DNA from: Spizellomyces punctatus DAOM BR117
Taxonomy: Eukaryota > Chytridiomycota > Chytridiomycetes > Spizellomycetales > Spizellomycetaceae
Direction: 5' to 3'
Assembly: GCF_000182565.1 (NCBI RefSeq)
Contig: NW_015971548.1
Span: forward strand, 302,047 to 366,046
DNA length: 64,000 nucleotides
Numbering within the stretch: the first letter of the stretch is position 1; each line of letters begins with the position of its first letter. Under the pieces are notes generated by a model. It was given only the letters and a program-made list of their open reading frames with translations, did no database searches and was not told where the DNA came from. Below are positions 1,786-36,300 of the stretch, piece after piece. Position numbers and translations under genes: made by a program.

Positions 1786-2239
1786 TGAATGGCAATATAC
1801 ATTGTTGAATGAGTCTGCTCCTGCATGGAAGTCGTATATATGTGTATCCTTTTGCAACGGCTAGCCAAAGCCCTCACTGGGCGACTAAGATGTTTGAGCT
1901 TGATCTCTCGTCCACTCACCAAATAGCCAGCAGTTTGGCGGCAAATATACCCCTCCTTCTTCTGACATGTCTTTGATGTGGACTGAAGTTCGTGAGTTCA
2001 GTCCCATCCCATCCATGGAATGATTTTGGGCTTTCTGAGTTCTATGAAACGGGGGGGATTCATAGAAAGATCGGCAGCAGCGAGGTAAGCCAACCATCGC
2101 GGCCATGGCAAGAGTGATAAATGGACGATACGAGTTCTCGTTGTGCTTCTTTTACCATAAATCTGCTCTTTGATCTCAATTCTCCAATTCAACTTTCTGT
2201 GCAAACGAGCTATTGTCTTGCAGGTAACCCAAGGCCCAC
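1786..2239. other. Convergent 3' intergenic region
   Basis: This lies between the 3' ends of the TMEM243-like gene and the minus-strand gene at 2240-2713. A minus-strand open stretch (1885-2106) ends in GGVYLPPNCWLFGEW. It might be an extra 3' exon of the minus-strand gene, but I could not find a splice pair that keeps the frame. Confidence 0.3.
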
Positions 2240-3801: not shown

Positions 3802-3810
3802 TATATAAAG
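3802..3810 (+). promoter_or_regulatory. TATA box of glutamate synthase gene
   Basis: TATATAAAG matches the TATA consensus and is followed by a pyrimidine-rich stretch (about 3820-4060) of the kind found around fungal transcription starts. The coding start lies 496 bp downstream, so the leader is long. Confidence 0.55.
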
Positions 3811-4076
3811 GGCGTGGGACTCTGGATTTTTCTTCTTCCCCTTCTGCCCTCCTTCCTTGCCGACACTCGCAGCTGGGTGTTTCTTGCAAAAGTCCGGTTC
3901 TCGCCCAAACCAGCGCTTTTCGCCAAAATCCTTGTCTGTGTGCTTCATCGTCGTCGTTAGGAAGGGAGTCTGTCTTCATTATTAGTATTATATTGGATAT
4001 CCGACTACTCTACTACACACTTTTTGCACATACACTATTGTTTTTTTCGTTTTTCTGTCTCCTCGGGACCTTGCTG

Positions 4077-4235
4077 GTGAGTGCACAGTGCTTTTTAGGC
4101 AGAATTCCGAACCATTGTATAGCTTGTTTTGGCTGACTCTGGAGATTTCCCCATCTTTTACAGAACTGTTTATCTGCAAGGATTCCATTTGTAACCTAGA
4201 TTTTTCACACATACACTTTTCATCTTTATCCACAG
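4077..4235 (+). other. Possible 5'-UTR intron of glutamate synthase
   Basis: A consensus donor GTGAGT at 4077 and an acceptor TTTATCCACAG ending at 4235 would remove 159 nt of leader between the TATA box (3802) and the start codon (4306). This is inferred from splice signals only. Confidence 0.35.
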
Positions 4236-4305
4236 GTGGGCTCGCTCGTTTGCTGTCTGTGAAAAAAGGATCAGATTTACTTACCAGCGCAGTTGGGTTT
4301 AAAAG

Positions 4306-7300
4306 ATGGCTCCGCAGGACGAACACTTTGAGTCTTGGGCGGATGTTATCCCGCAAGCTCAGGGTCTATACGACCCCGAATTTGAGAAGGATGCTTGTGG
4401 TGTTGGGTTTGTTTGTCACATTAAGGGGCAGCCTAGCCACGAGATTGTTGCGGATGCACGCAACTTACTCTGCAACATGACCCACCGTGGTGCCGTAGGG
4501 GCAGACACTCGGGATGGTGATGGCGCTGGCGTCATGTGTTCGATCCCTCACGAACTCTTTGGTCGCGAGATTAAGAGAAACTTTGGCATTGTATTGCCTC
4601 CGCCCGGGCAATATGCTGTTGGTAACATTTATCTCAAACCCGACGAGGTCGTGATGAAAGACAGCCAAGAGAAATTTGAGGAAATCGCTCAAAGCCTCGG
4701 TCTCAATGTGCTCTGCTGGCGTCCAGTACCGCGCAACAACACTATTCTCGGCCCATCCTCCAAAAGCAAAGAACCCGAAATTTTCCAGCCCTTCGTCACC
4801 CTAGTCCGCGCTCACAATGCCGAATTTGACTACAAACACTTTGAGCGTCAGCTCTATCTTCTCCGCAAACAAACTACTCACGCTATCACATTAAAGAAAT
4901 GGTTCTACATCTGTTCTCTTTCGAGCAAACACATGGTATACAAGGGTCTGCTCGCCCCGGTGCAAGTATATGACTACTTTGCTGATCTGACCAACCCTGG
5001 TTTCAAATCATACTTTTGTTTGGTTCACTCTCGTTTCTCCACCAACACGTTTCCTTCATGGGACCGTGCACAGCCGATGCGATGGTGCGCTCACAATGGT
5101 GAAATCAACACGCTTCGTGGTAACAAAAACTGGATGAGAGCCAGAGAAGGTGTCATTAAGAGCGAAGCATTCAAGGAACATCTGGAAACCCTTTTGCCTA
5201 TCATTGAAGAAGGCGGTTCCGATTCTGCCGCTTTTGATAACGTGCTCGAGCTTCTGATTATGAATGGTGTCGTATCGCTTCCCGAGGCCGTCATGATGAT
5301 GATTCCAGAAGCCTGGGAGAACCAGCCCAACATGGAACCTGAGAAGCGCGCTTTCTACGAATGGGCCGCATGTCTTATGGAGCCATGGGACGGTCCTGCG
5401 CTGTTCACGTTCTCGGACGGTCGATACGTTGGTGCTTCATTGGATCGTAACGGTCTTCGCCCCTGTCGATTCTATGTCACGGACGCCGACATTATGATTT
5501 GCGCCTCTGAAGTGGGCACTATCTTCGTCAAACCGGAGACTATCGTTTCCAAGGGACGTCTCCAACCCGGAAAGATGTTGCTTGTTGATACTGAAGAAGG
5601 ACGTGTTGTCGATGACCGCGAGCTCAAAATGAGGATCTGCACGGAGCGCCCCTTCGGAACCTGGATCAAAGATAATATGCTCAGCATGGAGGATGTTCGC
5701 AAATTCGCTCAGCGGTCGGGAGCTTTCCATAAACCCGCTCTTGACGAGCACTCGGTGGCAGAGGATAAGCGCATGTTGGCGTTTGGTTTCACCATTGAGC
5801 AGCTTAACATGCTCATCATGCCGATGGTCGCGGACGGTAAAGAAGCCCTCGGATCTATGGGTTACGATACGCCGCTTGCCTGCATGTCTCGACAGCCAAA
5901 GGTGGTCTATGAATACTTCCGTCAGCTGTTCGCTCAAGTCACCAATCCACCCATTGATCCCATCCGTGAGGAAATTGTCATGTCCTTGTCCTGCTATGTC
6001 GGACCTCAAGGCAATATTCTCGAGATGACTCCCACTCAAGCACATCGGCTTCACCTCCCCTCTCCCATCATCTCCATCGAGGAATTGGAAGCACTCAAGA
6101 CATTGCCACGCTTCAGGGCTGATTGGAGTGTTGCTGAGATTGACATTACTTTCCCTAAGAACGAGGGCGTGGCTGGCTACCTCGCTGCTCTCGACCGCGT
6201 GTGCTCCGAAGTGTCTCAAGCCATTCACGATGGGTTGAAGATTGCTATCCTCAGCGACCGCCACGTGTCCTCCGACCGCGTTCCTCTCTCCGCTCTCGTT
6301 GCCTTGGGAGGTGTGCACCACCATCTGGTCCGTAACAAGCTTCGGTCCAAAATTGCATTGGTGGCAGAGACTGGTGAAGCGCGCGAAGTCCATCACTTCT
6401 GTGTACTCTTGGGATATGGTGCCGACGCTATCTGCCCGTACTTGGCGTACGAGGCGATGCTCAAGCTGAAGAGGGAGAATATCCTCAGGAGGGATCTTGC
6501 CGAAGACAAAATCATTTACAATTACATTAAGGCGAGCAATGACGGTATCCGCAAGGTGATGTCCAAGATGGGTATCTCCACTTTGCAGAGTTACAAGGCT
6601 GCTCAGATTTTCGAGGCTCTTGGTTTGGACTCTTCGGTTGTTTCCAAGTGCTTCTCTGGTACAGCTTCACGTATCAAGGGTGTCGGATTTGATATTTTGG
6701 CGTTGGACGCCATCACCTTCCATGAAGCCGCTTGGCCATCGCGTGACACTGTCACCATTGAGACGCTCCCGGAGTCTGGTGACTACCACTGGCGTGATGG
6801 TGGAGAGGCACACATCAACGACCCGGCCAGTATCGCGAATTTGCAAGATGCTGTCCGCCGCAAAAACACCAATGCCTACGAAGCATACTCACGTCAATCA
6901 TACGAGCAGATCAAGAATTGCACACTTCGTGGTCTTCTCGACTTCAAATTTGACAATTCAAGACCCATTCCAATCGAGGACGTTGAGCCATGGACAAACA
7001 TTGTCAAGCGTTTCTGTACAGGCGCCATGTCGTACGGGTCTATCTCCTTCGAGGCGCACTCAACACTTGCTTTGGCCATGAACCGTTTGGGCGGAAAAAG
7101 TAACACTGGAGAAGGTGGCGAAGACCCAGAGCGATCGAAACCTTTGACCAACGGAGATTCCATGCGTTCTGCCATCAAGCAAGTCGCCTCAGGTCGTTTC
7201 GGTGTCACGAGCTACTACCTCTCAGATGCTGAGGAACTCCAAATCAAGATGGCGCAAGGTGCCAAACCCGGTGAAGGTGGTGAGCTCCCTGGACACAAGG

Positions 7301-10300
7301 TGTCCGAAGGCATCGCTGCTACGCGTAAATCTACCCCCGGCGTTGGACTTATCAGTCCCCCTCCCCATCACGACATCTACTCCATTGAAGATCTTAAGCA
7401 GTTGATTTACGATTTGAAATGTGCCAACCCCGCATCTCGCGTGTCTGTCAAACTCGTATCCGAAGTCGGTGTCGGTGTTATTGCTTCCGGTGTGGCCAAG
7501 GCAAGGGCGGACCACATTTTGATCTCTGGTCATGATGGAGGCACGGGAGCCAGTCGATGGACTGGTATCAAATACGCCGGTCTTCCTTGGGAGCTTGGTC
7601 TTGCCGAAACGCACCAAACTCTGGTCCTTAACGACCTTCGTGGCCGTGTAGTTCTTCAGACCGATGGTCAAATAAAGACAGGTCGTGATGTTGCCATTGC
7701 ATGTCTGCTCGGCGCTGAAGAATGGGGTTTCGCAACTGCTCCTCTCATTGCCATGGGCTGTACTATGATGCGGAAGTGTCACCTGGTGAGTGGACGTTAC
7801 TTTAATGCATCATTTACATGAGGAACTAACTCGCTTTCCTACATTAGAACACCTGCCCAGTTGGTGTGGCTACTCAGGACCCTGAACTGCGGAAGAAGTT
7901 TGAGGGTACTCCTGAAGACGTTGTGAATTTCTTCTATTACGTCGCCGAAGAATGCCGTACGATAATGGCCAAGCTTGGTTTCCACACGATCGATGAGATG
8001 GTTGGTCGTACCGACTTCTTAACGGTCAACGAGGCCGTCAAGAATCCCAAAACCCGCAACCTCGATCTCACACCGATCCTAACTCCCGCTTTCACCCTTC
8101 GTCCTGGTGCAGCTACTCATAACGTGAAGAAGCAAGATCACATGTTGTACAAACGTTTGGACAACAAGCTGATCGAGCAGGCCAAGCGGGCTCTTGAGAC
8201 GCGTCGTCCTGTTCAGATCGCGGCCGAAGTTGTGAACACTGACCGTGCCCTCGGGGCCACACTCAGTTACGAAGTGTCAAGGGCCCACGGTGAAGCAGGT
8301 CTACCGGACGGTACAATTCACGTGCAGCTCACAGGGTCCGCCGGTCAATCTCTGGGAGCTTTCTTGGCTCCTGGTGTGTTCATTGAGTTGGAGGGTGACG
8401 CCAACGACTATGTAGGCAAAGGTCTTTCGGGAGGACAAATTGTCGTATACCCTCCAAAGGTCTCCAAGTTCAAGGCTGAAGAGAACATCATTGTTGGAAA
8501 CGTTTGTTTGTACGGTGCTACCAGCGGTAAAGCCTTCTTCTCTGGAGTTGCCGCCGAGCGTTTCGCGGTCCGTAACTCGGGTGCGATTGCTGTTGTCGAG
8601 GGAGTCGGTGACCACGGTTGTGAATACATGACTGGTGGTCGTGTGGTTATTCTCGGTCCTGCTGGACGCAACTTTGCTGCTGGTATGAGCGGAGGTATCG
8701 CCTACGTCCTCGACCAGGAGGATCGCTTCCACGGAATCTGCAACACGGAGATGGTAGACTTGGATCGCGTGAACGAGGTTGACGATGTCAAGTGGCTCAA
8801 GGATTTGATTACCGAACATTACACGCTGACCGGCTCTGGCGTCGCACAACGTGTCCTCCAGAACTGGCACAAGGCTCTGCCCAAGTTCGTCAAGGTCTTC
8901 CCTCGTGATTACAAAGCAGTGTTGGCAAAGAAGATGCAGGAGAAGGAAGGCTCCCTCAACGCGCCAAAGGCTGAGCCCGCTCCTGCACCCGCACCCCGTA
9001 AAGAGCCGCTCCTTCTTGACCTTGAAGACAGTGTTACGGACGAAGCTATGGCGAAGAAGCGTGTCGCCGTCGTTGACAAGGTTCGCGGATTCATGAAGTA
9101 CAACCGTCAAGGCGACCAATACCGGAACCCACGCAAGCGTACAAAGGACTGGAAAGAGATCAACGCGCGTTTGAACCCTGAAGATCTCAAAGTTCAGGCT
9201 GCTCGTTGCATGGACTGTGGTGTACCCTTCTGTCAGTCGGACAATGGATGTCCCATTGGTAACATCATCCCCAAGTGGAACGACCTTGTCTTCAAGAACC
9301 AATGGCAAGAGGCTTTGGATCGCTTGCTGATGACCAACAACTTCCCCGAGTTCACTGGTCGCGTGTGTCCAGCTCCTTGCGAAGGTGCTTGTGTCTTGGG
9401 CATCAACGAGTTGCCCGTGTCGATCAAGAGCATTGAGTGTGCCATCATTGACCGGGGTTTCGCAGAGGGATGGATTGTTCCCACCCCACCAAAGCACCGT
9501 ACTGGAAAACGCATTGCAGTCATTGGTTCTGGACCCGCTGGGCTTGCGGCTGCCGATCAACTCAACAAGGCTGGTCACACTGTGACGGTATACGACCGTA
9601 ACGACCGTATTGGAGGTCTGCTTATGTACGGTATCCCCAACATGAAGCTTGACAAGGCTATTGTGCAGCGCCGTGTTGATTTGATGGCGGCTGAAGGTGT
9701 TGAGTTTGTCACCAATGCGCATGTCGGCAAGAACGTGGATGTCCGCAAGTTGAAGGAGGACAATGATGTCGTGGTGCTCGCTATGGGTGCGACATGGCCT
9801 CGTGACTTACCTGTGCCGAACAGGAACTTGGATGGTGTGCACTTTGCCATGGAATTCCTCCAACGTAATACCAAGAGTTTGTTGGACTCTGACCTTCGCA
9901 ATGGCGATTACCTCAGTGCTAAGGGCAAGCACGTTGTGGTTATTGGCGGAGGTGATACTGGTACTGATTGCTTGGCTACATCTTTGCGTCACGGTATGTA
10001 TGGCTGTTTGTCAGTTTGCATAATTCTCTCAATTGCTCATTTTCGCTTTATCCACCTCTAGGCGCTGCAAGCATTGTCAATTTTGAACTTCTTCCCCAAC
10101 CCCCAGCAACGCGTGCCAAGGACAACCCATGGCCCACGTTCCCCCGTGTCTTCAAGGTTGACTATGGTCACGCTGAGGTCGCTGTTCACCACGGCAAGGA
10201 TCCCCGTGAGTATTGCATCTTGACCAAAGAATTTGTGTCAGACGGCAAAGGTCACGTCAAGGGTATCAACACGGTTCGCGTTGAATGGACCAAGGACGAG

Positions 10301-16893: not shown

Positions 16894-17881
16894 ATCCGCC
16901 GTCTGTCATTTTGCAAAAGAGATTAATTTTTGTTGAAATGGGCTGGATATACCACGTATTGCTAGATAATCTTTTTTTTATGACCGATAAGAGATTCGCA
17001 TCTCACTTACAATAAATGATTTATTTTTTTTTGTCTATTTTGTATGTTGATGTCCGTCACTTATCGCTTGCAGCCATGTTGCAAGGATATCGAGCTGCAG
17101 GTTTGATGTTTTCTCCCATTGCATGTACATTTTTAAGCGACACGTGCGATGACAGATGCATGAACAGTAGGCCGTACAAGTGACTGTACGTATGATGGAG
17201 TATTCCTCTCATTTGCACGCATTGTTACAATGCAAATAAGGGCATTCAACAGCTCGCTATTTTCTCCGCACTCGGTTTACCACACACCAAGCCAAAAAGA
17301 TGCATGACTATCGTTAATGGTCGTCACGGCTTCCAGATTAAAATGAACCAGCACAATTGGGATGGCAAAAAGACATGACAAAAAAACTGGAACCGATCAA
17401 AATGCACAGTTTACGATAAGATGACTGATCTTTGCGGCCAGGTGTAGGTGCTTACAAATTGTTTTTCTTTAAAGTAAACAACCTGTATGTGTATCGCTCA
17501 TGAAGTTTACTAGATTGTCTATTTACATCCGGCGGGAGGTATTGCAAAGCATTGGGTCTGTATCTGTTTTTATTTCTTGTAGTTATTCCGCCCCGCTTCC
17601 TAGCTCCGAAAGTTACCGCCGGACTGGGAATTAATTTAAATTTACCATGGGTTCCAAAAGGGCGCGATATTATGGGGATTTGTGTGGCTGTGCGCGGTAA
17701 GCGGATTTATACGTTTCTTGACTTGATGACACATTGATTAAATAATACCCGCTGCCGCTCCGCCCTTCCAGCAACTGATTTTCCAATGCAAACATTATAA
17801 AAAGAGATGCTTCATTCCGCACATTCAACATTCCAACACAATCACATCTCCAACACATACAACACTCAACAATCACGAAAC
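16894..17881. other. Intergenic with downstream promoter
   Basis: This holds the 3' region of the zinc-finger gene (AATAAA at 17011-17016), then AT-rich sequence leading to the TATA box of the next gene. No coding potential is supported. Confidence 0.4.
17796..17804 (+). promoter_or_regulatory. TATA box of Rossmann oxidoreductase gene
   Basis: TATAAAAAG lies 86 bp before the ATG at 17882. The leader between them is rich in C and A (repeated CAACAC), typical of highly expressed fungal genes. Confidence 0.6.
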
Positions 17882-18744
17882 ATGAAGTGCCTTCTTTTCG
17901 GTGCATCCCGAGGCTGCGGACTGGAAGCCGCTTTCGAACTCCTATCATCTGGGCACGACGTCACCCTCTTCCTCAGAAATGTTAACGTAATCGAATCTCA
18001 CCCTCGCGTTCAATCTCTTCCCGTGGACCAACACTCACGATTGCACACAGTAAAGGGGGATGCCTTTGTAAAGGAGGACGTTGAGAGGGCTTTTGACAGT
18101 ATTGGAAGCGATTTGGGGACTGTGTTATTCAGTATTGGCGGAAGGCCATCTTTTAAAAATCCTCTGGCTCTGAAATTGGAACCCCCTGAAGTATGCGAAC
18201 GCGGGATTGGCGTGATGCTGCCTGTTCTAAAGGCATATGGGGAAAAGCATGGAGTGGAGCCACGGTTGATTGTGGTATCCTCTAGCGGTCTGGGAACCGT
18301 GGGTCATGCGGAGTTGCCCTTGATTATGAAGGTGTGTTACCAGACTTTTCACAAAAGGCATTGTCCAAAACATGGCTCTAATCTTGGTTCCATATTGTTT
18401 AGCCAATGTATTCCTGGCTGTTAAAGGAACCCCATGCCGATAAGGAGAAACTGGAAGCACACATTTACCATTCAGCGGGCCTCAGACATCCGGACGCAAC
18501 CATCGATCAGAGTACTCAGACCTCTCTTCACACTCGGTCCCTTCCAGAAAACGGATGGCTCAAGGAATTTGTTATTGTTCGACCGGCTTTCTTGACGGAT
18601 GGACCTTGTACCGGAACCTATCGTGCAGATGAGCATTTGAAGACCTATACCATTAGTAGGGCGGACATTGGGCATTTTATCGGCAATGAGTGCGTGGGTG
18701 AGGTCTGTAAATGGGTGAATAAAGCTGTGACAGTTGGGTATTGA
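17882..18744 (+). CDS. NAD(P)-binding Rossmann protein (NmrA/atypical SDR)
   Basis: Two exons (17882-18331, 18403-18744; 71-nt intron) give 263 aa. The protein opens with a beta-strand and dinucleotide loop, KCLLFGASRGCGLEAA (glycine motif at residues 7-13), then alternating beta/alpha elements. LIVVSSSGLG (about 129-138) marks the central strand carrying the active-site serine of short-chain dehydrogenases. FVIVRPAFLTDGP (about 205-217) is the RP-x-L-T-D/N-G motif seen in NmrA-like and SDR-a5 members that act as oxidoreductases or redox sensors. A classical YxxxK pair is not obvious. The promoter has a clear TATA box. The substrate cannot be inferred. The joined sequence LIMKPMYSWLLK across the splice is in frame and sensible. 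Confidence 0.85.
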
Positions 18745-19056: not shown

Positions 19057-22000
19057 ATGCTCTTCATTATTATCTTTTGGTGGTTTGGATGGACGGCGGC
19101 TGCGAGCGCCGAAACGGCTTGCCGAACCTTCAATGGAAGCTTTGTAAGCACAGTTTTGTAATCTCATTTATGGATCCGTATTAAATGTCTGCCAAACTCT
19201 TTTAGAACAACCAGAGGTTCCCAGACTGGGGCTCGAAAAGTTCCTCATTTGCCCGGATACAAGCACCCCTGCAGTACTCTGATGGACTTGCTGCACCCTA
19301 CGGGATGTCTCTCCCAAGCCCACGCAAAATCTCAAACATTATGGGATCCAAGACGAAGGCTAATGAGGATAAAGTTCCAGATATGTTAGCCTATTTCGGG
19401 CAGTTCCTCGCTCATGATAGCTTACGTGGACATGGTAACAACACTGATCGATATGATATACCGGTGAGTTGCTTTGGCTAGTTCCTGACGATAAATGACA
19501 TCCAAGGTTGTCATCAAGGACTCATTCCCACGTCGCATTGCTTGACTGTAGGTGCCTTGCAATGATCCACACTTTGATCCCTACAATACCTGCAACGCAT
19601 CCATACCCTTTGGACGTCTACAGCACATTGTAAATTCAACAACTGGTCAACGCATCGTGCAGAACTGGCAAACAGCCTGGATAGATGCTTCCCAAGTTTA
19701 TGGGCCAGATGAAGAGCGTTGTAGGTTGTTGCGCAAGTTTACAAGGGGAATGCTACGAACTTCGTTGGATGGGTTGTTCTTGCCTACTGTTCCTGTATCA
19801 CCGCCGGATCTGATGTTGGGGATATCGCCTCTGGTCTATCTGGCAGGGTACGTGAGCCATCACATCCATATGCAGGTCTATTAAATCATAAGCTTAATCA
19901 TAAAGCAGTGATTACAGAGCCAACGACGTATGTATTATAATAAATCTGGACCAATCCGACCTATTGTACCAACTTTTTACGATCTGCTAGAACCCTGGCC
20001 TTCTTTCTCTCCATACCCTCTTCGTGCGCGAACATAACCGACGGGCAGCGTACTATGCAAAAAAGAATCCAGATGCCAATGACGAGACACTTTTTCAAAT
20101 GACACGAAGGTGGGTTATTGCTTGTCTTCAAAAGATTGCTTACAAAGAGGTTCGTTGAACTCCAATCGTACTTTTTTCGTCTTTGTTTGCGACCCAAAAT
20201 CTGATGGCCCAAGGTGGATTCTTTAGTATCTTCCGCGCTTACTTGGCGAACCGCTGCCAAAATACCGCGGATATGATGATAGTGTTGACCCAGGTATTTT
20301 TTATGATTCATGCAGACAGTTTTGCATATGTAAAGATTGGTTATTGATGGGCTTTTAGGCATTGACGCGTTCTTCTTCGCCGCGTCCTTTCGATATGGGC
20401 ATAGGTACCTACGCGAATGTTTTTGTTCATCACATCACCGTCGCTGACAACACGGCATCTTTCTAGCGCTATAAACTCCCTTATTCTCCGGCTCGACAAC
20501 AACTGGGAGGAGATCCCCTCCGGTCACATCCTTCTACGAGAAGCCATCACCAACCCTAATCCAGTCTTGGAGGATGGCATTGAGCCCATTTTGCGTGGAC
20601 TGGTCGCGCAGGTACATTGTAATGCCGTTTTCATTGATTTGAGATTGTGATAACCTGAAGTCTTGAGTTAGCTGGAGCAAAAAACAGATGTCTGCGTGGT
20701 TAGCGACCTTCGAAATTACATGCCTTTACAGCCTTTCATGCCTGATCAGAGGAAATTCTTCGATCTCGGGGCAGTTAATATACAACGTGGGCGGTAAGTC
20801 TTATGAATACTAGGTTCGAAGCGTTTGACCTGCCAGTCGGGCTGATAGTTGTGCTCAGGGAAATTGGATTGCCTAGCTACAATCAAGTGCGAAAAGCATT
20901 GGGTTTAACAGAAGCCTACACGTCTGTATCCGGTTTTGTCTAGTTGTACGCTACCAGAGATGTCATAACTAAAATCATTCCCTGGCAGAATAGGTTCCGG
21001 GATATTACTTCAAATCCAGTAGTCCAAGAGCAACTGGTTACAGCTTACGACAATGACGTGAATTTGGTGGATCCATATGTCGGCGGCCTAGCCGAAGATA
21101 GTCACGACTCCTCTGTTCTCGGTGAACTCTTTCAGAAGAGCGTGATAGAACAATATATCAGACTACGAGGTACAGACTATGTTTGACCATTCCCGGGGCG
21201 GCTGACATACTGAGCATTTATTTATAAAAGACGGTGATGCATTTTGGTACGAGCGCGATGGAATTCTTAGCGCGGACGACATTGCGGACCTCGAGTCCGT
21301 CACTTTATCGAATTTAATTTTGTGGAATACCGATATAAAGAGTTTTCCCGTTAATGCCTTCTCCATCGTGACGACCAATATGATCAGTTCGTTTCTTGCC
21401 AAGAATACAAGTACCCAAACAGAAGCTCGGGGAACGATCACGGGTTCTATTCCACAGACAGTTCAGTTGACGGATGGACTGGCATTAACGTATTTGATAC
21501 ACATCGACGCGCAAACGGTGGATTTTGTTTTGGAATCGAATCATAGTGGCTGGTATGATTTCGTTGTTAGATCTATCTCGCATCATCATTGTTGAAATTG
21601 AGTATCTCCAGGTTTGCAATCGGATTGGGAACGTCCATGATGGATGCGGATATAATGGCAGTATTTGATCGAGGCGACGGGACCTGGGTTGTCGAGGATT
21701 TACGGAGTACCATTCACGATCAGGTTTGTCTCAAAAGTCTTCTCTGTCCTGTTGGGTAAGATACAAGTTGCATGACCCCGTGAAATAGCCCTCATTAGAT
21801 ACGTCTCGTGGCTGTACCAACGACTTGACGCAAGTAGCCGACGTATCATCCACACGCTTTTCTACCCGTGCTTTCTCGTGGACACGTAAACTTGTTACTG
21901 GAGATTCCTGTGATTACCCTATTTCAGATAGTTTCATGAATATCATCTACGCATATTCGACGTCCCCGACGTTAACATACCATGGTGGAACAAAATGGAG

Positions 22001-24921
22001 TGGAACGTTGAACTTTTTCTCCGGAGTTGGGACGGGACGAACAGGAGGTTTGATCAACACGACAAGCACGGCGTCGACTTTTGCTGTTTTGTGAGTGATG
22101 ACTCTATTCTGTTTCGTTCGAAGAATCTAGTCTGATGAGCCTCTGCTATAGGTTTCATGCCTGTGACATGTTATTCATGACGATGGTAGCCATCCCGTTG
22201 GGCATATATATTGCGCGATATGGAACCCGGATTGATTTATGGCTTCCGCTTCACCAGTATCTGATGGTAAGTCAAATTGGACGTTGAAAGGAAAGGTTAT
22301 TCTAATTTTTGGTTCCTAGGCGGCCGTTCTTAGTGAATTTGCATTCACACTTCGGGCAGCTTTCTCCCAAGTCGGAGGATTCAATGTAAGCAACTTACTT
22401 CCCACCAACGACCACGCATTCCACCCAAACTGACAACGATTTTCGCACCCGACAGTGGCAACATGCACCGTTTCTGCACGTCGAAGTCGGGCAATGCGTT
22501 GCGGGTGTCGGACTGACGATCGGTGTAGCCGGATGGTTGGTCGCGCAAGACTTTAAGATCATGTCAAGGTGGTCGTTGTGGATTCGACGATATCATCGTT
22601 ACTGTGGGTTAGCACTATACCTTTGTGGTAAGCTCTTGAAACAAACTGCGATTTTTCCTTGGAATCTTACTGGATATAGTGATTTTCAAGCTATCTTCAA
22701 CGGATGGTTGGGTATTGCCGATCTAGGTCCGTTTCTTGAATTTTTTTCACTCAGGCGATGCGGAACTTGCCACTAACTGTCTACCACACAGCTGCCCGTT
22801 ACAATTCTACAAGTAATCTGTGGCCCATGCTTTACATTGGATACTTTGGCCTCCTTTTCCTGATCTTCTTCGGGGTCCGACAAGTCGATCACATCTGGCA
22901 TCGGATCCTTCGAGGTATTGACACGCTGAGCGGCAAAGTGCTTGAAAGAAATGTCCCCCATGGTGGAGCAGGGGCAACAGTCCGATTCATGGATGATGCC
23001 CTCATAAAACAACCAGAGCAAGAGATGACATTAGAGAGTTTTATTAAGAATTGTCAGGAAGGGCAGTCCTGGACAATCATTTCAGGGTATGCAATTCTTC
23101 CCCGTGAATGTTGAGGACGGGTCTAACCTGCACTTTAGGATGGTCATCGATGTCAGTCGCTACATGGACCAACACCCTGGAGGCGTAGCAGCGTTAAGAT
23201 CTGTCATTGGCAAGGATGCAACGAATGTCTTCCAGGGCAAAGAAAAATTCAAATTGAGTGACGGAGTGCACTATAGCATGTACACGCATAGTCGTTTCGT
23301 ATGTAACCTTTTTCTCTTTGCCATCCGTACGTTTTCGCACCGTACTGTATTCTCACTTGTTTGATAGGCAATGAACAAAGTAAGCCACTACGTGATTGCC
23401 AAAATATACGACCCAAATTTCCCGCAATCCAGAGCGTCTGGCGTACCATCCGGAAAAAGCTCACATTCGATAACTATCAGTAGTGCCTCTCGTCGCCGGG
23501 GATCGCTGCGGCCAAGGGATGTAGAGTTCGGACTTCACTCAATAACCTCTACTGGTTCACATTCTGCATCTACCTCTGGCTTGCGCGCCGCATCTACCTC
23601 GTTCTCTGTGTCTGCTGCTGGTACTGGCCCATACCCTTCACCTTTGCCGCTGAACGTGGGCTGGAGACCCCTTACCCAAGTCTTCAACCAAGACGAGAAA
23701 ACAAGCCAAGCAGAAACAACGACTCACATCATGAAGACTGCGCTTCTGGAGGCCGAAAATAATACACAATTGGAAGGTATACTGTCTCAAGGTAATTTTT
23801 GACCTATACGTCCGCCATTTTTCAAAGATTTGATTCTGACAAGCTCTCAATGCTAACACCCCCAGAGGACGAACCAGTTGGGAAACAAAGACTTGCTATC
23901 TTGGTCGAGAAAGAAACAGTGACAGGATTAAGAGCAAGAAATCCGATTCGAAAATTCAGATTTAGTCTTAATGCTGGAGACAGGATGGACATTTTACCCG
24001 GGGATGCAATATCCGTGAGGTCAGTAAGATGTCAAAGGCTTTACGCCCATGTTCCGAAGCCAACCGTACATCCTTAGTCTGCCGACTCCGGCGGGTGGGA
24101 CTGTTGAGCGGAACTATACACCGGTGCGATGTGCCTTACCGGGTCACTTTGACGCTTATATCAAGGCAAGCACTATATTGTGTGAAAGGAACGTTCGATC
24201 AGGTGTTTGACTACCTTCTCCATTCTACCAGATATATACCAATGGTGCTATGACGCCGCTATTGGATGAGTTGAAAGTTGGTATGTATCAAAATTCTTTG
24301 GTTGCAACTGCACCGTCATTCATGTTGCTCTGTAGCCGCACCTATCAAGATTCGCGGCCCGATACAGCATTACGTCGACCCGCTGCTTAAAAACTCCGCG
24401 AGCGGATGTTACGGGTCTCTGGTTATGCTTGCAGCTGGCACTGGTACAGTAACACTGGTAGTCATTGTACTTCTCATTGTTCCTTACATGCACCACTTTA
24501 AGGAATTGTACCTATGGTCCAGCTCATCGATTATTACCTTCGCCATTGCCCACGAGAAAACAGCCAGCCCGGTAGCCCACTCGCATCCGCTTTGAGGTTA
24601 ATATGGTGTAACAACTGCGAGGATGATCTCTTTCTCACCTCCGAACTCAAGTCTATGGAATCGGCAAGCGGGGGATCGCTAAAAGTCATCCGCGTCCTAT
24701 CTGCCCCAGCACCAGATTGGGAAGGTCATACTGGACGGATTACCGCTGAGATGATAAGAGAAGCCCTTCCCAAGACGTTGCCAACGCTGGAATCATTGTT
24801 CGACCAGGATGAAGAGTCGGACTTGTTGGTCACTGTATGTGGGCCGCCTCCTTTTACAGACTTTGCTATCCAAACACTGGAATCTTTGGGGGTGTTGGCG
24901 GTGAATGTTCGGTTGCTATAA
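19057..24921 (+). CDS. Heme peroxidase-DOMON-cyt b561-cyt b5-FAD/NAD(P)H reductase fusion
   Basis: Twenty-six exons join without a frame break into 1422 aa. Exon starts: 19057, 19206, 19552, 19909, 19991, 20227, 20359, 20467, 20672, 20859, 20989, 21231, 21612, 21789, 22152, 22320, 22456, 22691, 22792, 23139, 23368, 23866, 24078, 24232, 24336, 24503. A signal peptide (1-18, ending ASA) precedes an animal-type heme peroxidase (about 20-500): distal His99 in FGQFLAHD, catalytic Arg217 in GDYRAND, REHNR, proximal His310 in FRYGHS. Next come DOMON (about 515-690, GWFAIGLG), b561 membrane helices (about 715-890; His730, 762, 796, 835), cytochrome b5 (about 930-1025; His968 in HPGG, His1006), a Ser-rich linker, and an FNR-type reductase (RNYTPV 1213-1218, LAAGTG, CGPPP 1396-1400). 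Expected topology: peroxidase and DOMON outside, b5 and flavin cytosolic. It is not a Ppo oxygenase (no P450) nor a DUOX (no NOX). Function is inferred. Confidence 0.88.
19909..19927 (+). other. 19-nt microexon with peroxidase catalytic Arg
   Basis: This exon lies between CAG| and |GTATGT. With two bases from the previous exon it encodes G-D-Y-R-A-N-D. It joins LAG to NPGLLSLHTLFVREHNR exactly as in peroxidasin-type enzymes (GDxRANE). Skipping it would both remove the catalytic Arg and shift the frame. Confidence 0.8.
24166..24231 (+). other. GC-AG intron in peroxidase fusion gene
   Basis: Exon 23 ends ATCAAG and the intron starts GCAAGC. The acceptor is TCTACCAG and the length 66 nt. The join YIK|IYTNGAMTP restores the usual FNR-family sequence in phase 0. 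Confidence 0.75.
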
Positions 24922-27099: not shown

Positions 27100-27366
27100 T
27101 TCTGACTGCCAGCATGACGAACGTTAACGCTTTGCCTCATCGGCAAAAGGGAGCGATGCGTAAGCAATCCCGTGACTGATGGCTTAGCTGACTGTGTTGG
27201 TCATCCACTGTTCCATTCGTTGCTCGCCGCCCATCTCTCGCGGACTAGAGGGACTTATACCGACATTGGTCAGGAAGAAAGTGATAGAAATAGCGTGAAA
27301 CCTGTTGAAAACGTACAGAGCTGGCATATAACAAGGCCAATGGTGGAATTTGGTTGAGTCTATGTA

Positions 27367-30300
27367 ATGGACTGGCTGAAAAAGACGGCGGGTCGAATTA
27401 AGCACCCCCAGCCACATCAAGATCGTCCCACGCTCAGTATACCCTCGACAGTAGAAGTAGGACGATTCGAAGTATCACAGACTGCAGTTGGCTGCTGTGC
27501 TTTGGGTGGACGGCACGATGGCACTTTTGGAGATGATGATGAGGGGTGGAGGATGCGGAGATTGTGGAAGTCGTATGACAAGCATAGAAAGCGAAAGGAC
27601 ATACACGGAGATCCCGAGTCACCTGAGAAATGTGCAGAGCTTGGTGGATTGGATGCTGCTGCCTCCGAGGCTACTCCTGAAAATGATCTCCTAACAAGCT
27701 ACTTGCGAGCCTTTGGCGCGCGCTTTGGGCCGCTGACAGAAATAGATGAGATACGGAATATGAGAAAGATGTTTTCAGAGAGCCACATGAAGCACGGTTT
27801 GGACCCCAAGCAGTCTACTGGATTCCCTTTCAGCCGACATTCTGCGACAGCGTCTGGCCCTCCTTCCCAGGTCACATCTCCACTGGCCCCACCAGCGCTT
27901 GGACATCCTCACGTAGCTGTCTTGGGTATGATTGAAGTCTTGGAGCATCTCGCAGCTGAACACCATGCAAAATTGGTTGCTCGTCCTGCGAATTATGAAA
28001 ACCTCTTGTCGCGAACGTTGCATATTTTTCAACACATGGAGCTCTTATCGCGTTTTGATGGTAACCGGGATGCCATGGTGCAACATGGGGCGATCAACAG
28101 CATCGCACTTATTTTAACGCTTAGCGTCCATGTAAATAATGCAAATCAAGATAGACACGATCGTATCCACGAGGCTACTGAGTCGACGACGACTATTCAT
28201 TACTTATCACTGGCCCTGATGATTATACAAAGATGCTCCGACCCAGAAGCCGCATGGGAGCGGTTTATTCGCAATGGCGGTAGGGAGCGAGCGAACGAGG
28301 ACACTAGTCATCCACCACGAAGGGGACGGGCAAGCGCGGCTTTCTCCGAGCCCACCACACGGCATATATTGGACGCGTTATTTGTCCTTTTGACTGAGGG
28401 AAGCCATAAGTTAAATATCAATCGTCTGATCTTGATAGTCCATGCCATAAATGCTTTGGGCTGCCTGTTGGTAACTCAAGGTTCCACGGTGTTGGCTATT
28501 TTGACTGAAGCATCGCACAAACTGGAGGTCCTTTGCAACATAGTGGGCGATCTGGCCTACGATAATAGAACTTTTAGCGTTCAAAGTAGCTCCGATACAT
28601 ATGATGAGAACGTTAATGCGTTGCGCTACCGTTTCATTGGTCGGATACTCGCATGGTACTTGGTGGAGCTCCTCTCAGCGAACGATCCCCGTTGCCGGGA
28701 ACACATGAAAGCGCTAAACTGGCCCCAGAAAGTAGCGAGTTTCCTTGTGTGGACGGCAGCCGTTACTCCTCGTTGTCCGCAGCTGAATGACAGCGTCGAT
28801 GGGAACACAGAGAGGTATTATAGCTTTTTTCCGGAAACTCGTCACCGTACAGCAGATACAGGAGTTGAAGGGATCGGGGGAATGCCATGTCCATTATGGC
28901 CTGTACCGGCCTTGGAACGTTCACCGGACGATTGGGATACAATGTGGCCAAGTGGATCGGCGTCGATGAATTTGGATTTTATCATGTCGCAACCACTTGG
29001 CACTGAGGAGGTGGAACTCGTCTTCCTTCTGGAAGAGATGTTTTGTCTTCATGACTGTCATAACAGCTGGAGTACAGAATATGTTCCGCGGGCATCAGCG
29101 GCAAGATCTAGCGGTTTTGGTGATAGATCTGCTTCAAGCATTTACCAGCAAGTCGACGAAGAAAGCATTTCGGCGGCCCTTAACGGCGCGTTGAAAATGA
29201 TGTACGATGTTTTCGCCGACGATGGAATCGCCCACCAGGAAGATAATTGTTCCCGGCGAATTGCTCTTGGGTACGCTGAGGATCACTTCCCGCGTTTGCA
29301 ACTGGGCTTTATCAAGCTTCTTGCTGGCTTGATCATATACGACAAAGACGCAGCCGTCACGAAGGCTCGGATAAGTTGGTTGTTGAAATGGATGGATGAC
29401 CTAAATGTATGGGAATTGCTTCTAGGTCCTCGATTCTACATGTGGGGAACCGCCTATGCCGGCGAGCGAGCCATCCGTGCTCGGCAGGCGATGAGAACGA
29501 GTATCTTGACTCTCATTGTCTACTGTGGCACGTTGGCTGAAGACAGCAACGATCGACCATGTCGTGCCTTGCTGTCCTTGTTGAGTAAGCACCAAGTGGA
29601 GTACCCTGAGATAATCCGTGACACATGCGGTGCACTTTGCTTGATTATACGAGCAAGGCCGGTCACCCAAGAGACGTTTCGCCGTTTGAATGCTTTTGAA
29701 ACGCTCCTTCCCGTTCTTACATTTTGCACATCAGAGAGCGTTACCGATGTGTCTTACCGTTTTCCCATATTTGCCTTATTCAAGTCCGTATTGGCCAACA
29801 ACAAAGAGATGTCAATATATGCATTTCTGAACCGTCCGATTCTCAATTGTTTCTTCACCCTTCTGGGGTCATCCCACATTCCCACGTCTTGCTTTGCTCA
29901 ACGCCGCATTTTTGACATTGTAACTGTCTTGGCGACGGATTATCCCACCTATGGTCGATGGGGCATTATCGTTCAACCCTCACTGACACCTACGACTCCA
30001 ATGACACCAGCCACCCCGGACCAAGAGACGACTCCAGAAGTCATGCGAAGATATCTTGAATGCTTTCCTGGTTTGATAGATCAGCAGGACAAGCTGGATT
30101 TGCAACTTCGATTATTGAGAGGCATACGAGATTTTGTGGGGGAAACTGCTGAAGATATCAGTATGGCGCTCAAACATGCACTCATCAAAGCAAAAGTCTT
30201 TCAGTTTCTCATGAGTGTCCTGAGTGTCAAAGTTCATCTTGAGAGTAGCCATGATAATGGCGGGACATCTTTGAACCGTGAATATCACGAATTAGTCGAA

Positions 30301-33300
30301 ATGGTCATTTTCACCGTTGCAACGTTGATTCGCGACGATGAAATGGCGAAGAAGTCGTTCCGGGAACTGCATGGATACGACGAGATTCGAACCCGGATTT
30401 GCCTGAAAGGCGGATGGCAATGTTGGCCAGGGCTGTTAAATTCCCTTTTCTTTCTCCTCGCCGATGGTAGAGACGCTCCTTACCGTGTGCGAAACCTTGA
30501 TGTGGTCGACGCCTTGTTCCAGTTCTACGAGCATTGCAATCAACAACTTCGTGGGCAAATGATCTGCGACCTTGATCGAATTGCCGCTGCACATGAACCT
30601 AGTAAGGCGGCTTTACATTGTGCAGGCATTGTAAACAAGATTTTGAGAACCGTCTTACCTCTGGCCACCGATGAAGAGCATCTGCAACAAGTAATGCAGC
30701 TGCTCAAGACAGTTGCAACCTACTCATTGACAGTAGCTGAAGTGAAGCTTCTGCTCAAATGTTTGCGTCGGCGAGATCTTTCCAGCGACCGTTTAGTGAG
30801 CTCAATCACGTCCTATCCCTGGTCATCACTGGCATGGTCCGAACAAAGACATTCTAGTGTGTTGGACTTACGTGATACCGAAACAGAGCTTCCTTTTTGG
30901 TATGATGCGTTGGTGCGGACCGTAGTCGAAATTGCTCGACGGCAAGCTGGAGACCTGGATCTCTTTTGCTTCGACGGTACAGGGGGCATGATCGCGAAGG
31001 GACTTGACAAATGGCCAGTATCCGCGGGAGGCTGGAGTTTTATGACATGGATTTGGATTGATGCAGAAGAAGGTGGAGGCGATCCCACGAAAGAAGAATC
31101 CACCGTATTTGCATTACGAACTTCCACTGGCGACAACGGACTGGATATTTCACTCCTCCGGGACGTCTTGACAGTCAGAGTGACGAAGGCCCATCGACCC
31201 CATGTTGCGTCGGTCACCAACTACCCCGTTGCTCCCAATCAGTGGCACTCTGTTGTCATTTCACATGGAAGCCCTAAACTACCATGGGCCACCTCTTCCG
31301 AAGCATTAGTGTACATCGATGGGGTGATCAGATGGAGGGGAAAACTTGAATATCCTGATGTCGCGACGTACAGCATTGCGCGCGTTGGTGCATCAGCTCC
31401 AGTGACGGGACTCACCCAAAGCAATACTTCGTTAACTTTTTATGCAAACTCATTTACGGGACAGATGACCTCCATATACCTCTTGGATGACATCCTTAGC
31501 CACCATCAGGCAACATCGGTTCATCAGCTGGGGCCATCTCAAGCTTCTCGCCTTGGAAAAGGAAGCAATGCACGCTCTTCCGGCGCCGAACTTGAAACCG
31601 TAGACGCTGATAGAGTCGTCATGCAGTTTCATCCGATGGCTACCAGAATATTGAATGTGAAAGACAAGCATTTTTATTCATCTAAAAAGCGAAGAAAGCA
31701 CTCCGAAATTCCGCAAGGCAAGGAGAAAATGGCTGGCATAGTCACGTCAGCTACAAAGTGTTTTTGCACCGCTGTACATGCCCTTGGTGGGATCGGAATT
31801 CTGATTCCAATCCTTGCCCAAGTTGATTTGAAAGCGGGATATTCTGGTACCGCACAGAGCGGCACTCAAGTATCGTACAACGTCAAGGACGAGAATGCTA
31901 TCAAAATAAGCCGGACCAAGCTCTTCTTCGATCTATTAGCGACGGTGATATCCGGCGACCCCGTCCATCAGGATAGGCTTGCGGCTATGTCCGGTCCAAA
32001 AGTGATGTCGAGCTTACTACAGCAAAACAATCCTGCAGGATTAGGGCTGGAAGTTTTAGACGCTCTTGTTAACGTAACACAGGTGAGTTATCTTCGAATA
32101 TCTCCAAGATATCATCAAGGCCACGATCAATAAATGATTAGCGTGAATCCGTATAGGAGTCGTGTTTCCATCTCGCGCTTTTCAGTGATATGGAGAAGTA
32201 CCTAATATTCGACTCGCGTATATGGACGCATGCTGCAGAAGAAGTTCAAATAGAATATTACCAATCTGTTCATCAACTTCTCGCGAGGGATATTGAAAGA
32301 TACCGGGATCGCTATGGCGCAGGATTCTGGGTCGACGTTTTGGAAAAGTTCTATCGGTACACGGGCCCTAACATGTCAGAACTAACACAGCCACTGCAGT
32401 CTCATCGGGGCTCCCGCGAATCAACTGCACTACTGCGACGCTTTATTTTTGGGATTATAAAGGAGTTCCTGTTAAAGTCACCGTCTGCAGATGACGTCGG
32501 ACGAATCGTTCAGGTACTTTCGTGCTCAGATGATAATGTACATATCGCGGAACTGTTATCTGTAGTGGTCGAGATCAGCGTCCATCACCCGGAAAGCAGG
32601 CTTGCAGAACGATTTTTGAGTCACGGTGGCGGCGAATCCTTGTTCTTACTGTCGCTCAATAATACCCTGGAGCGCACGAGAGTTTTGGCTTTGCAGATGA
32701 TGTTGATAATCCTCAAGTCCCACAGCACCAGCGACAAATGGAAGAAGCGAATAAAATTGGAGGAAGTTGGATGGCTGGGTAGCACTGTGGCAGTGGGGAA
32801 CACGGGTGGGTCAGGTCCAGGTGTCCTCGCCAGGATTCTTGTCTACCATTCCTTTACCGCACCCATCTATTATGCATTCCTGCAGTTGGCGCTTGAAGAG
32901 CAAGTTTTAGATTGGGAAACGCAAGAGGTTCTTGTGGCCCCTGTCGAGCTACGCAATGCTAAAATCAAGAACGTAGGATATATCCAAACTCTATTGGAGC
33001 TCGCTGCTGGCTCAGGCACGACAATCAAGTTGAGAATCGAAGTGCTACGAGACATCTTAGTTCTCGGATGCCGCAATGGAAATGGAGAAAGTATACGAAA
33101 GATAGCGAGGTGGCAGTCACTCTTGATGGCTATATTCGATGGGCGTAGTATGAGAAAAGAAAGCCGGGTGACCCAGGTGCAAGAGCAAGGAGGTCGACAC
33201 ATTCACTTGGAGAATCCGAGCCACCGGAAATATCAAACCCATCCGCGCAAGCTGATGAAACACGATTATCCAACTTGGGTTTCGAGACTCTGACCACATT

Positions 33301-36300
33301 TACCCTAGATACATTTGACTTGGAGCGTAAATCATGGCGGTGTGTGGAGGAGATTGCGATATCTGCGTGGCTGACAAAACGCGAAGACGAAGCATATACC
33401 TTCTTGAGGACATTTTTGTTACGGTTACTTTCGGCGGTCAAAGGTGAGATCGGCGGAGGCGATTGGAGAAATTTCTCAGGTGCTAAAATGGTATGAGATA
33501 ACTTGTTTGACCAAGGGTCCTTACAGTATGCTGATGTGAACGTTCCTGTTGCAGGAGAATATTGCACACTTACTCCTATTTGTCGAGGAGTTTATGTTTA
33601 ATCACCATGATCTGCGTGATGCTTTGATGCGGGATCTGCATACCGAAGGTGCGTTCTAAGGCACATACTTGCAAAGTGATGCCAAGGTGAAGAGACTTCC
33701 CTAAATTTTCCTATCGATTCATGACGTTTAGACCCAAAACGACTGTTCTTTATACCTAACCTGCAAGAACTCCTGTCAGCCGGCCCACCTAGTGCCGCAA
33801 CGGGTGACTTGACTGTCCGAATGTCTTTCCCATTAGGCGAATGTCGCGACCTCGTCGAAGAGTATCTGGAAGTGCTTTCCTCTTTGATCGACTTTGGCAT
33901 CACCCACGTCCATTTGACAGATGGAGCCGAAAAGGTGTCAAAGAGTGCGTTGCGCTTTGCTGGCTCTTCTTAGACTGATAGCCCATACTACCTTTTTTGC
34001 AGAGCCACCTTCGGTCGGGGGGTTTAGTACGACTAGCCATCAGAATATTGCTGAGTGCTTTCACGGTCCCTGACGAAAGCATATGGCATATGGCATTGCG
34101 ACATCTCATTCCGTTATTGGACAAACATGCAATGACCTTCTCAGAGGGGAAGGTCAAAGAAAGAGGCTTTTATGTTTTGGGACATGTGCATGAGATATTT
34201 GTAGTGTAAGTAGCACGCATATCGACGTGTATGTCTCACGCCTAATGCTTTCCCATGAGCAGTGCACAGCGGTCCCGCGATCTCGATGGTGAAGTCGCGA
34301 AGGTCGATCATCGAATTGTCCTGCCGCTTTATATGCTGGTTATGACACGATGGCGAGAAGCTGTGGCTAGCCTTGTAGAGGCCAGTGAGGCCGCCGGTGA
34401 TGCGGCGCTTATATCGGAGACGCTGCTCAATGAGGCCTTGGCAGATCAACAGATTTTCAACCACCTGGTGACATCCCCAGTTTGGGATAGCGTATATGAC
34501 ACCAGTCTGTTCCCGGCCATGAAAATGGTCGAGGAAGACGAATTCGCCATGGTTCCTCTTGTGACTAGGCGGTTTTCACGGATGTCTAGGTCCACGTGTA
34601 CTCGGTGGGCCAAAGAAGAGGCAGCCTTAGAGCGCGCAAAGGAGTTCATATGCGGCATTCTGGAACGGGTGGCTAGAAAAAGACGGGGGGATGAGAACCA
34701 GAGAAGCGTCGACTGTGAAAAGGAAGAAGAACTAGAGAAAAGGATGGTGGGTAGACAACTCTGTCTATTGTGGCGAACCTTGACGCAAGAAAGGGGAATG
34801 TGGGCGCCAGTGGAGGATGGAAATAATGGGAGCAAGAGTAGCGTAAAGTGGAAGCTGGACAGGGCGGAGAACTATCTGAGGATGCGCCGGCGGTTGACTC
34901 CAAACTGGGAATTCGATGATCATGTGAATGCATCAGCCAAAAGGGACAAGACATTCAAGCCAGACGATAGTGTTCCTCGTGGGGAGAGCCCAAGGCTGTC
35001 ACGAGCTAGCACGTTCAGCAGTATTTCAGCGGTCGACAGGAAGAGGAGTCAGATGGACAAGCTCAGGTCTCAGATAGAGAATGGTCTCGGGATTCCGCCT
35101 GACCTGTTAAAAGAGGTTAGTATAACAAGCTTGGGAAGCTTGGCAGCGGACGACGACAATGACCTCGGCGAGGAAGAATGGAGCGTTTTGAATGAGGATG
35201 ATTTGCTTGGATCTAATGCTACCAGCGGCGCCACGGGTAGCGCAAGTAAAGGCGATCGACTTCTCTATAGCGCTGATTGCGAGATGATCCTCCTCATGAC
35301 TCCTGTGAAGGGTCGTATTGAAGTGACTGCGTCCCACCTCACTTTCACCGCAGACATCAAAGCCACGACTTTGGGGCTATGCGAGTCGGAACGTGAAGCT
35401 GTGATGATACTCCTCGTCGACAACGATGCGCTGCTAAAGGAGCGACGGTGGTCGCTCGACGACTTATGCGACTGCTATCTCCGCCGTTACATGCTACGCA
35501 AAAGTGCTGTCGAACTGTTCTTTTCAGATAAGACGAATTATCTTTTCAACTTCCCGGGGGCAGGCAAAACGGCAGGTAAGGACCGATTGAAATTTCTGAA
35601 GTGTCTGGTGAGCTGTCGACCCGTCCAATTGGCAAACGTTGATGTGCGGAGTAGCCCGTGTGATGTGGTAAAAAAGAGCCCTGTGACTGAGCGGTGGGTC
35701 AGAAGAGAAATTAGTAATTTTGAGTACCTGATGTGGTTAAATACTGTTAGCGGTGAGTGCGTTATCAATACTCTGATATCGCTGCAGATATCTAATAATT
35801 GTAATCTTGGCTGTAGGGCGGACTTACAATGATCTCACTCAATATCCCGTCTTTCCTTGGTACTCCCATCGTTCTATTTCAGGCCTAATGACACGACTTG
35901 TATTAAGAATATTTGAACAGGATTATTCGCGATTATGAGAGCGAAACGTTAGATATTACCGACCCTTCCATTTACCGCGATTTATCAAAACCTGTTGGAG
36001 CGCTGGATGAGACACGGCTGGCCCAATACCTTGAGCGGTACAAGGCCTTCGAAGACCCCACAGGCCGAATCAAGAAGTTCCATTATGGGACACACTACTC
36101 CTCTGCAGCAGCTGTCGTGTTCTACTTGCTAAGACTGGAACCTTTCACAACTCTGCACATCACATTACAAGGTGGAAAATTCGATCATCCGGATCGGTAC
36201 GTGCGACACACAGCTTGCTCTCTTTTTTTCTGAGGATATCTTATGTCGATGTTTAAATAGGCAGTTTCATTCACTGCAAAGCTGTTGGAAATCCGTTCTT

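Follow-up and report, generated by a model that had tools for sequence, protein, structure and literature searches.

A predicted peroxidase-DOMON-b561-b5-flavin protein of Spizellomyces punctatus: a possible transmembrane NADH peroxidase

Does a chytrid gene encode, in one chain, a heme peroxidase outside the cell and an electron chain that could serve it from inside? The question is raised by a locus in the window, by which we mean the whole stretch of 64,000 nucleotides of Spizellomyces punctatus DAOM BR117 DNA that was analysed (contig NW_015971548.1, positions 302,047 to 366,046). A preliminary description of this DNA, made from the sequence alone, had read one frame as a secreted peroxidase joined to DOMON, cytochrome b561, cytochrome b5 and FAD/NAD(P)H reductase modules. 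Is this one gene, do other organisms share it, and where would its electrons go?

Gene model, module order and predicted topology

The coding region (19057-24921, forward strand) was modelled as 26 exons and 25 introns of 52-88 nt, specifying 1422 residues with a single terminal stop. This frame has no internal stop in the predicted model, and the length and exon number given in the preliminary description were thereby reproduced. The model rests on splicing guided by motifs and homology because a homology-free automatic splice path (codon usage plus splice scores) gave a poorer result, with 1258 residues in 28 exons and without blocks that are conserved in relatives. Intron boundaries are GT-AG in 24 of 25 cases and GC-AG in one (24166-24231); three introns end in AAG (21170-21230, 22628-22690 and 24444-24502). 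A working model had 1419 residues, and placing intron 10 at 20926-20988, a position consistent with the relative P0001, gave 1422. Residues before 422 are numbered alike in both versions, and the Pfam domain search was run on the shorter one.

Could a gene-model or assembly error have made one gene out of two neighbors? The GC-AG intron, the three AAG-ending introns and the different model given by the automatic path are what such an error might leave behind. Against it, the peroxidase/DOMON junction lies within the single uninterrupted exon 12 (Table 1), which speaks against two separate transcripts, and all five modules are found together in 22 of 126 proteins examined (see below). Moreover, P0001 from Spizellomyces sp. 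'palustris' matches at 84% identity over 100% of the length, and proteins from two other chytrids, Borealophlyctis (P0002) and Powellomyces (P0003), at 46% and 45% over 98%; because of these matches we do not regard the fusion as a gene-model accident, and an artefact seems exceedingly unlikely. Two relatives, P0025 and P0026, have names in the style of transcript assemblies, are marked as complete ORFs, and carry precomputed Pfam matches for peroxidase, DOMON, b5, FAD and NAD domains. A search of exon 12 against plasmids gave no match, as expected.

Table 1. Exons and predicted modules of the fusion gene (window coordinates; residues of the 1422-residue model)
Feature	Position in window	Strand	Basis
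Exons 1-7	19057-19143, 19206-19463, 19552-19847, 19909-19927, 19991-20149, 20227-20293, 20359-20404	+	
Exons 8-14	20467-20611, 20672-20793, 20859-20925, 20989-21169, 21231-21552, 21612-21723, 21789-22090	+	
Exons 15-20	22152-22266, 22320-22385, 22456-22627, 22691-22726, 22792-23086, 23139-23298	+	
Exons 21-26	23368-23791, 23866-24019, 24078-24165, 24232-24280, 24336-24443, 24503-24921	+	
Signal peptide-like start, residues 1-19	19057..19113	+	Hydropathy peak, residues 1-19
Animal-type heme peroxidase, residues 23-526	19123..21361	+	PF03098, E 2.5e-128
DOMON, proposed heme ligands Met599 and His692	21488..22000	+	PF03351
Cytochrome b561-like core, five predicted helices, about residues 726-888	22083..22883	+	Hydropathy, His counts, PF03188 in relatives, spacing
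Cytochrome b5, His968 (HPGG) and His1006	23031..23370	+	PF00173; b5 structures among PDB matches
Long Ser-rich stretch linking b5 to the flavin domain, about residues 1011-1177	23371..23945	+	
FAD-binding domain, RxYTP motif at Arg1213-Tyr1215	23946..24370	+	PF00970
NAD-binding domain with AAGTGI, Asp1325 and CGPP	24425..24867	+	PF00175; alignments to 2eix and 1cnf

The chain begins with a signal-like start, followed by an animal-type heme peroxidase, a DOMON, helices like those of b561, a cytochrome b5 and, last, the FAD and NAD domains. The order first proposed is therefore borne out by the Pfam calls, together with a reading of histidines and helices for b561. In the 1419-residue version Pfam places An_peroxidase at residues 23-523 (429 bits, profile positions 2-530 of 530), DOMON at 566-680 (E 1.7e-11), Cyt-b5 at 935-986 (E 7.2e-12), FAD_binding_6 at 1175-1256 (E 2.4e-11) and NAD_binding_1 at 1275-1402 (E 7.8e-17).

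The hydrophobic start and the distribution of N-glycosylation sequons point to a topology with the N-terminus outside and the C-terminus inside. Seven of the nine sequons precede helix 1 and one falls in the outer loop predicted to follow helix 4; the ninth (residue 1140) is on the side assigned as cytosolic and goes against the proposed topology. Secretion of the peroxidase head and the membrane arrangement, both part of the preliminary description, are likely on these signals. Two further hydropathy-flagged stretches, 1274-1292 and 1404-1422, belong to the NAD domain and were not taken as membrane helices. That the gene specifies a single-chain protein, with a predicted five hemes and one FAD, we regard as virtually certain.

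The surroundings are as follows. Upstream lie frames of an ordinary glutamate synthase (4303-10058, forward strand; GATase_2, Glu_synthase, GXGXG and Fer4_20) and, just before the fusion gene, an NAD(P)H-binding NAD_binding_10 frame (17801-18421, forward strand) that has no evident link to it. Downstream are frames of a large BEACH/neurobeachin-type protein, probably one gene (27358-35829, forward strand), and a 764-residue frame on the reverse strand (57789-60080) with no Pfam match at E 0.001.

Peroxidase residues, heme ligands and electron donor

Is the peroxidase head likely to be active? It keeps distal His99, distal Arg217, Arg307, proximal His310 and Asn408, and the other aligned residues are Gln95, Ala98, Asp100, Asp220 and Asn221, all of which we take to correspond to positions of myeloperoxidase (MPO). 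The MPO residues that form covalent heme esters, Asp94 and Glu242, are presumably represented by Ala98 and Asp220. The classical ester pair is incomplete, and Asp220 might still form an ester. To our knowledge the pair is not universal in the peroxidase superfamily, so its loss is no bar to membership. As judged from these residues the predicted peroxidase machinery is intact, though it could not form both of the classical heme ester bonds. The closest solved structures to the head, 8s6c (named Lactoperoxidase; 528 residues) and Peroxinectin A (6erc; 511 residues), are peroxidase-only chains.

Among the 30 fusion rows of the alignment, with each count restricted to rows that are ungapped there, the distal His is kept in 22/25, the distal Arg in 26/30 and the proximal His in 30/30. 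Distal residues are lost in four chytrid relatives (both His and Arg in P0006, P0016 and P0022; Arg only in P0121), and these four are the starred group in our peroxidase-domain tree. This clade keeps the DOMON ligands and nearly all the b561 and b5 ligands; the fourth b561 His is missing from P0016 in an alignment that did not include P0121.

The ligands of the putative chain are conserved to a striking degree. Counted in the same way, the DOMON Met is present in 29/29 rows and the DOMON His in 28/28, and the four b561 histidines in 29/29, 28/29, 28/29 and 26/29. We propose His730/His796 as ligands of the outer b561 heme and His762/His835 of the inner one, pairing first with third and second with fourth because the pairing is the same in HYP1, a plant DOMON-b561 protein. 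The DOMON His is 38 residues from the first b561 His in the window protein, and the median of 27 rows is also 38 (range 28-377); in HYP1 this distance is 37 residues.

The b561 assignment is nevertheless the weakest of the module calls, and it depends on the four spaced histidines, the hydrophobic helices, the PF03188 matches of relatives and the DOMON-b561 spacing. The PF03188 (b561) profile gives no score on the window protein and reaches E <= 0.01 in 13 of 27 aligned relatives; searched against the organism's own genome (24.0 Mb assembly, 29 contigs), it finds three places, none of them within the window. A hydropathy scan flags four of the five b561 helices, and the second helix was read by eye. 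Neither structure search has a solved b561 or DOMON chain among the 60 PDB matches listed. PF16010, the profile of the cytochrome domain of cellobiose dehydrogenase (CDH-cyt), matches 5 of 27 relatives at E <= 0.01.

In fusion rows with a residue, the two b5 histidines are kept in 25/26 and 22/26, the FAD Arg in 20/25 and the NAD Gly in 24/25, and the best PDB matches of the b5, FAD and NAD parts are structures of b5, b5 reductase and nitrate reductase. With its RxYTP, GTG and CGPP motifs and an Asp, the flavin tail is of the b5 reductase type, and its best alignments are to 2eix, an NADH-cytochrome b5 reductase, and 1cnf, an NADH nitrate reductase. Since these nearest solved relatives use NADH, NADH is more likely to be the nucleotide than NADPH. 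We also take Asp1325 as a marker of NADH preference; this position holds Asp in 17 of the 24 rows that have a residue there, some of those rows being without the flavin tail. The preliminary description had named cytosolic NAD(P)H as the source of electrons: a chain able to carry reducing power outward stands, and NADPH is the less likely half of that pair.

As a rule, b561 proteins are assumed to draw their electrons from ascorbate. The residues that dock ascorbate in HYP1, 7 and 3 positions before the fourth His, are not kept in this family (Arg in 2/26 rows, Asn in 0/26), which would fit a donor other than ascorbate. This is weak evidence for NADH, because the Asn at -3 is absent alike from rows with and without the b5/flavin tail.

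Distribution of the family and relatives in the same genome

The preliminary description had suggested a search of other proteomes for the same domain order, and the order was found in several phyla. The full-length protein search scored 7999 candidates, and the best 120 of 962 matches were used, so that all counts are lower bounds. Of the 126 proteins examined (the window protein and 125 from databases), at least 22 have all five modules, a count that is partly circular in that the module profiles were built from 18 of the 22 five-module rows. Precomputed Pfam annotation, which is independent of those profiles, has peroxidase, DOMON, b5, FAD and NAD domains together in 15 of the 21 database proteins. 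Holders of the five modules include Spizellomyces, Borealophlyctis, Powellomyces, Blyttiomyces, Cladochytrium, Quaeritorhiza, Lobulomyces, Geranomyces and Thoreauomyces and, beyond the chytrids, Sorochytrium (Blastocladiomycota) and the green alga Cymbomonas; others are EukProt or metagenome records. Some rows, P0015, P0019 and P0079 among them, are incomplete at one end. The architecture, as read from these proteins, is not a one-off; its occurrence in fungi, a green alga and other organisms may reflect age or transfer. One member, P0018, also has an Spt4 domain, probably from a merged neighboring gene.

Do head and tail belong together? A tree of peroxidase domains was built from 73 rows, namely all 30 fusions and every second plain row (43 of 85), without DUOX and cyclooxygenases and with its root at the drawing midpoint. 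A branch with SH-aLRT 98 separates the 30 fusion domains from the rest; P0025 and P0027 have long branches, and 20 of the 70 inner branches are open. The distances of head and tail are correlated at r 0.63, a value reached in 0 of 2000 permutations, for 19 of the 22 five-module rows (P0015, P0019 and P0079 being dropped) and with a tail tree that has weak deep forks and long branches. The grouping of the heads and this correlation suggest a functional tie, with the proviso that shared descent is also expected to produce the correlation.

Partial versions exist as well. P0033, P0034, P0094 and P0078 (EukProt and metagenome records) have a peroxidase, one or more DOMONs and b561 without the b5/flavin tail. 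With about 8000 candidates, chosen by shared words, scored in each case, a tail-only sequence search gave at least five proteins at E <= 0.001 and a tail profile at least six; we do not read these low numbers as rarity. P0122 and P0123 were not accepted as tail-only proteins since they may be truncated gene models (P0122 begins at DOMON). The metagenomic protein P0063 has a peroxidase-DOMON arrangement and is named a class 3 adenylate cyclase by its source, though it has no Pfam cyclase domain at E 0.01.

The S. punctatus genome itself was searched with PF03098, PF03351 and PF01794, and five regions were scanned with gene models left unspliced. One locus (L024) has peroxidase (E 1.3e-20, on one segment), b5 and FAD matches, a b561-like segment below the cut-off and a weak SH3-like stretch (E 0.15); another residue occupies its distal Arg position in the alignment, and the one segment scanned for DOMON gave no match. 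L026, a 1018-residue frame (29-3085, reverse strand), has DOMON, b5, FAD and SH3 (E 2.9e-9) matches, with b561 and NAD below the cut-off, and no peroxidase match in the scanned region. In L027, which likewise has no peroxidase match, b561 and FAD are above the cut-off and DOMON below it, and a signal-peptide-like start and an SH3-like stretch were recognized by eye. L026 appears to be the chain without a peroxidase, and L027 is probably another such. In L026 the SH3 domain (residues 843-884) separates the FAD part of the flavin module from the NAD part, which suggests that electron flow may be regulated by a partner.

A further locus, L023 (G000:C5:1361500-1369500, at about 702-4564), combines a peroxidase-like domain, DOMON (E 1.5e-11) and 7tm_3 (E 7.1e-16), and would be a receptor-like fusion with a peroxidase-DOMON head on a class C GPCR 7TM domain. 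Its distal Arg is replaced in the alignment, and a reading of the frames by eye shows its distal Gln and His replaced as well. No place in the genome joins a peroxidase to a NOX/ferric reductase domain (PF03098 against PF01794, with one locus, L025, seen in part).

Proposed electron route, alternatives and known systems

We propose that cytosolic NADH would reduce the FAD, which would pass electrons to cytochrome b5 and from there to the inner b561 heme, the outer b561 heme and finally the DOMON heme outside the cell. Electrons that ordinary b561 proteins take from cytosolic ascorbate would here come through the built-in b5/flavin tail. The DOMON heme would mainly feed strong oxidants at the surface, foremost compound I/II of the peroxidase or radicals made by it, and the protein would act as a transmembrane NADH peroxidase at the plasma membrane, with metals and quinones as alternative acceptors. 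This reading, a plasma-membrane enzyme whose NADH-driven chain serves the outside peroxidase, is in our view the best explanation overall, with a probability of roughly 45%. Outward electron transfer as such is highly probable. The step from the DOMON heme to an outside acceptor is the least certain, and the peroxidase as direct acceptor is put forward tentatively.

What else might the chain do? The close rival resembles plant CYBDOM proteins: an NADH-driven surface reductase of metals or quinones, beside which the peroxidase would be a neighboring activity in its own right that, for instance, protects against or uses peroxide near reduced iron or copper. Chain-only L026, and probably L027, are present in the same genome, and the clade that lacks distal peroxidase residues retains almost every chain ligand; judging from L026 and this clade, the chain would seem to have a use without peroxidase turnover. 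HYP1, moreover, was measured to reduce ferric and cupric substrates across the membrane (PMC10784544, excerpts). Electron delivery to the peroxidase is nonetheless favored because the catalytic residues are kept in most rows and because head and tail stay together, as seen in the grouping of the 30 fusion heads and the correlated distances; we accordingly hold the metal or quinone reductase to be somewhat unlikely, close rival though it is. A sensor or ligand-binding role of the peroxidase-DOMON head, with the electron chain serving signaling, might draw on L023, where a head with replaced distal residues precedes a class C GPCR 7TM domain, and on the name of P0063. It seems very improbable for the window protein, which retains the residues expected of an active enzyme, namely distal His and Arg, proximal His and Asn.

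The preliminary description had compared the protein to DUOX, with b561 in place of NOX and H2O2 among its outputs. On that account the chain would hand electrons to O2, either directly or through quinone cycling, and the resulting H2O2 would serve the peroxidase in oxidizing outside substrates, cross-linking included. The logic is indeed that of DUOX (cytosolic nucleotide, membrane hemes, outside peroxidase), the searched genome gave no peroxidase-NOX fusion, and fPoxDB, in the part of its description available to us, has 0 Duox genes in fungi. However, b561 and DOMON hemes have higher potentials than NOX hemes, which is unfavorable for superoxide formation. What survives of the comparison is an outward chain without a NOX core; H2O2 is one of several possible outputs and not the best supported, because HYP1, the DOMON-b561 relative with measured activity, reduces metals and because the genome has a chain without peroxidase. 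We consider O2 reduction improbable.

How does the protein differ from known systems? The family of DUOX enzymes, to judge from the excerpts available, likewise combines a secreted animal-type peroxidase, membrane hemes and a cytosolic flavin/nucleotide domain, whereas the window protein lacks the PF01794 ferric-reductase/NOX domain and EF hands (Pfam, E 0.01) and instead has a b561-like membrane core and a flavin tail of b5-reductase type. CYBDOM proteins (plant HYP1 and CRR) share the DOMON Met/His ligands directly before a b561 with four histidines; to these the window protein adds the peroxidase head and the b5-flavin tail, and it lacks the ascorbate-docking residues of HYP1. Animal SDR2-type proteins are CYBDOM members as well. 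NADH-cytochrome b5 reductase and NADH nitrate reductase have similar flavin domains, but the proposed acceptor here is a membrane b561 in the same chain. The cytochrome domain of cellobiose dehydrogenase is a related heme DOMON; the window protein has no sugar dehydrogenase, and its electrons would come from inside the cell. Linoleate diol synthase/Ppo proteins pair a peroxidase with a P450, which the window protein lacks (Pfam, E 0.01). In Naegleria and oomycetes a DOMON also lies outside a transmembrane reductase, but there the membrane part is a ferric reductase domain and the accessible excerpts name no peroxidase on these proteins (PMC3591440).

We found no description of this domain order in the open-licence literature of PubMed Central, in keeping with the preliminary description, which knew of no described protein with this order; the 2007 DOMON survey of Iyer and colleagues could mention it. 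The portions of the Ostreococcus, diatom and insect b561 literature that were available contain no peroxidase-DOMON-b561 fusion, and fungal five-module proteins, where they carry a name, are called 'hypothetical protein' or 'heme peroxidase'. The modules, the DOMON-b561 pairs and the b5-flavin pairs are already known. We tentatively suggest that together they make up an undescribed, old class of eukaryotic enzyme, a transmembrane NADH peroxidase working through a b5-b561-DOMON heme wire, a counterpart of DUOX that is independent of NOX and whose head has also been put to use on a class C receptor.

Should the chain function in the manner that its ligands suggest, it would be a second, unrelated way of coupling cytosolic NADH to a peroxidase outside the cell, and one present in fungi, where fPoxDB, as far as its available description goes, has no DUOX. 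In addition, a b561 protein would carry a nucleotide-driven donor within its own chain, whereas ascorbate is the donor usually assumed, and the way in which early fungi, algae and protists regulate redox chemistry at the cell surface would become open to test.
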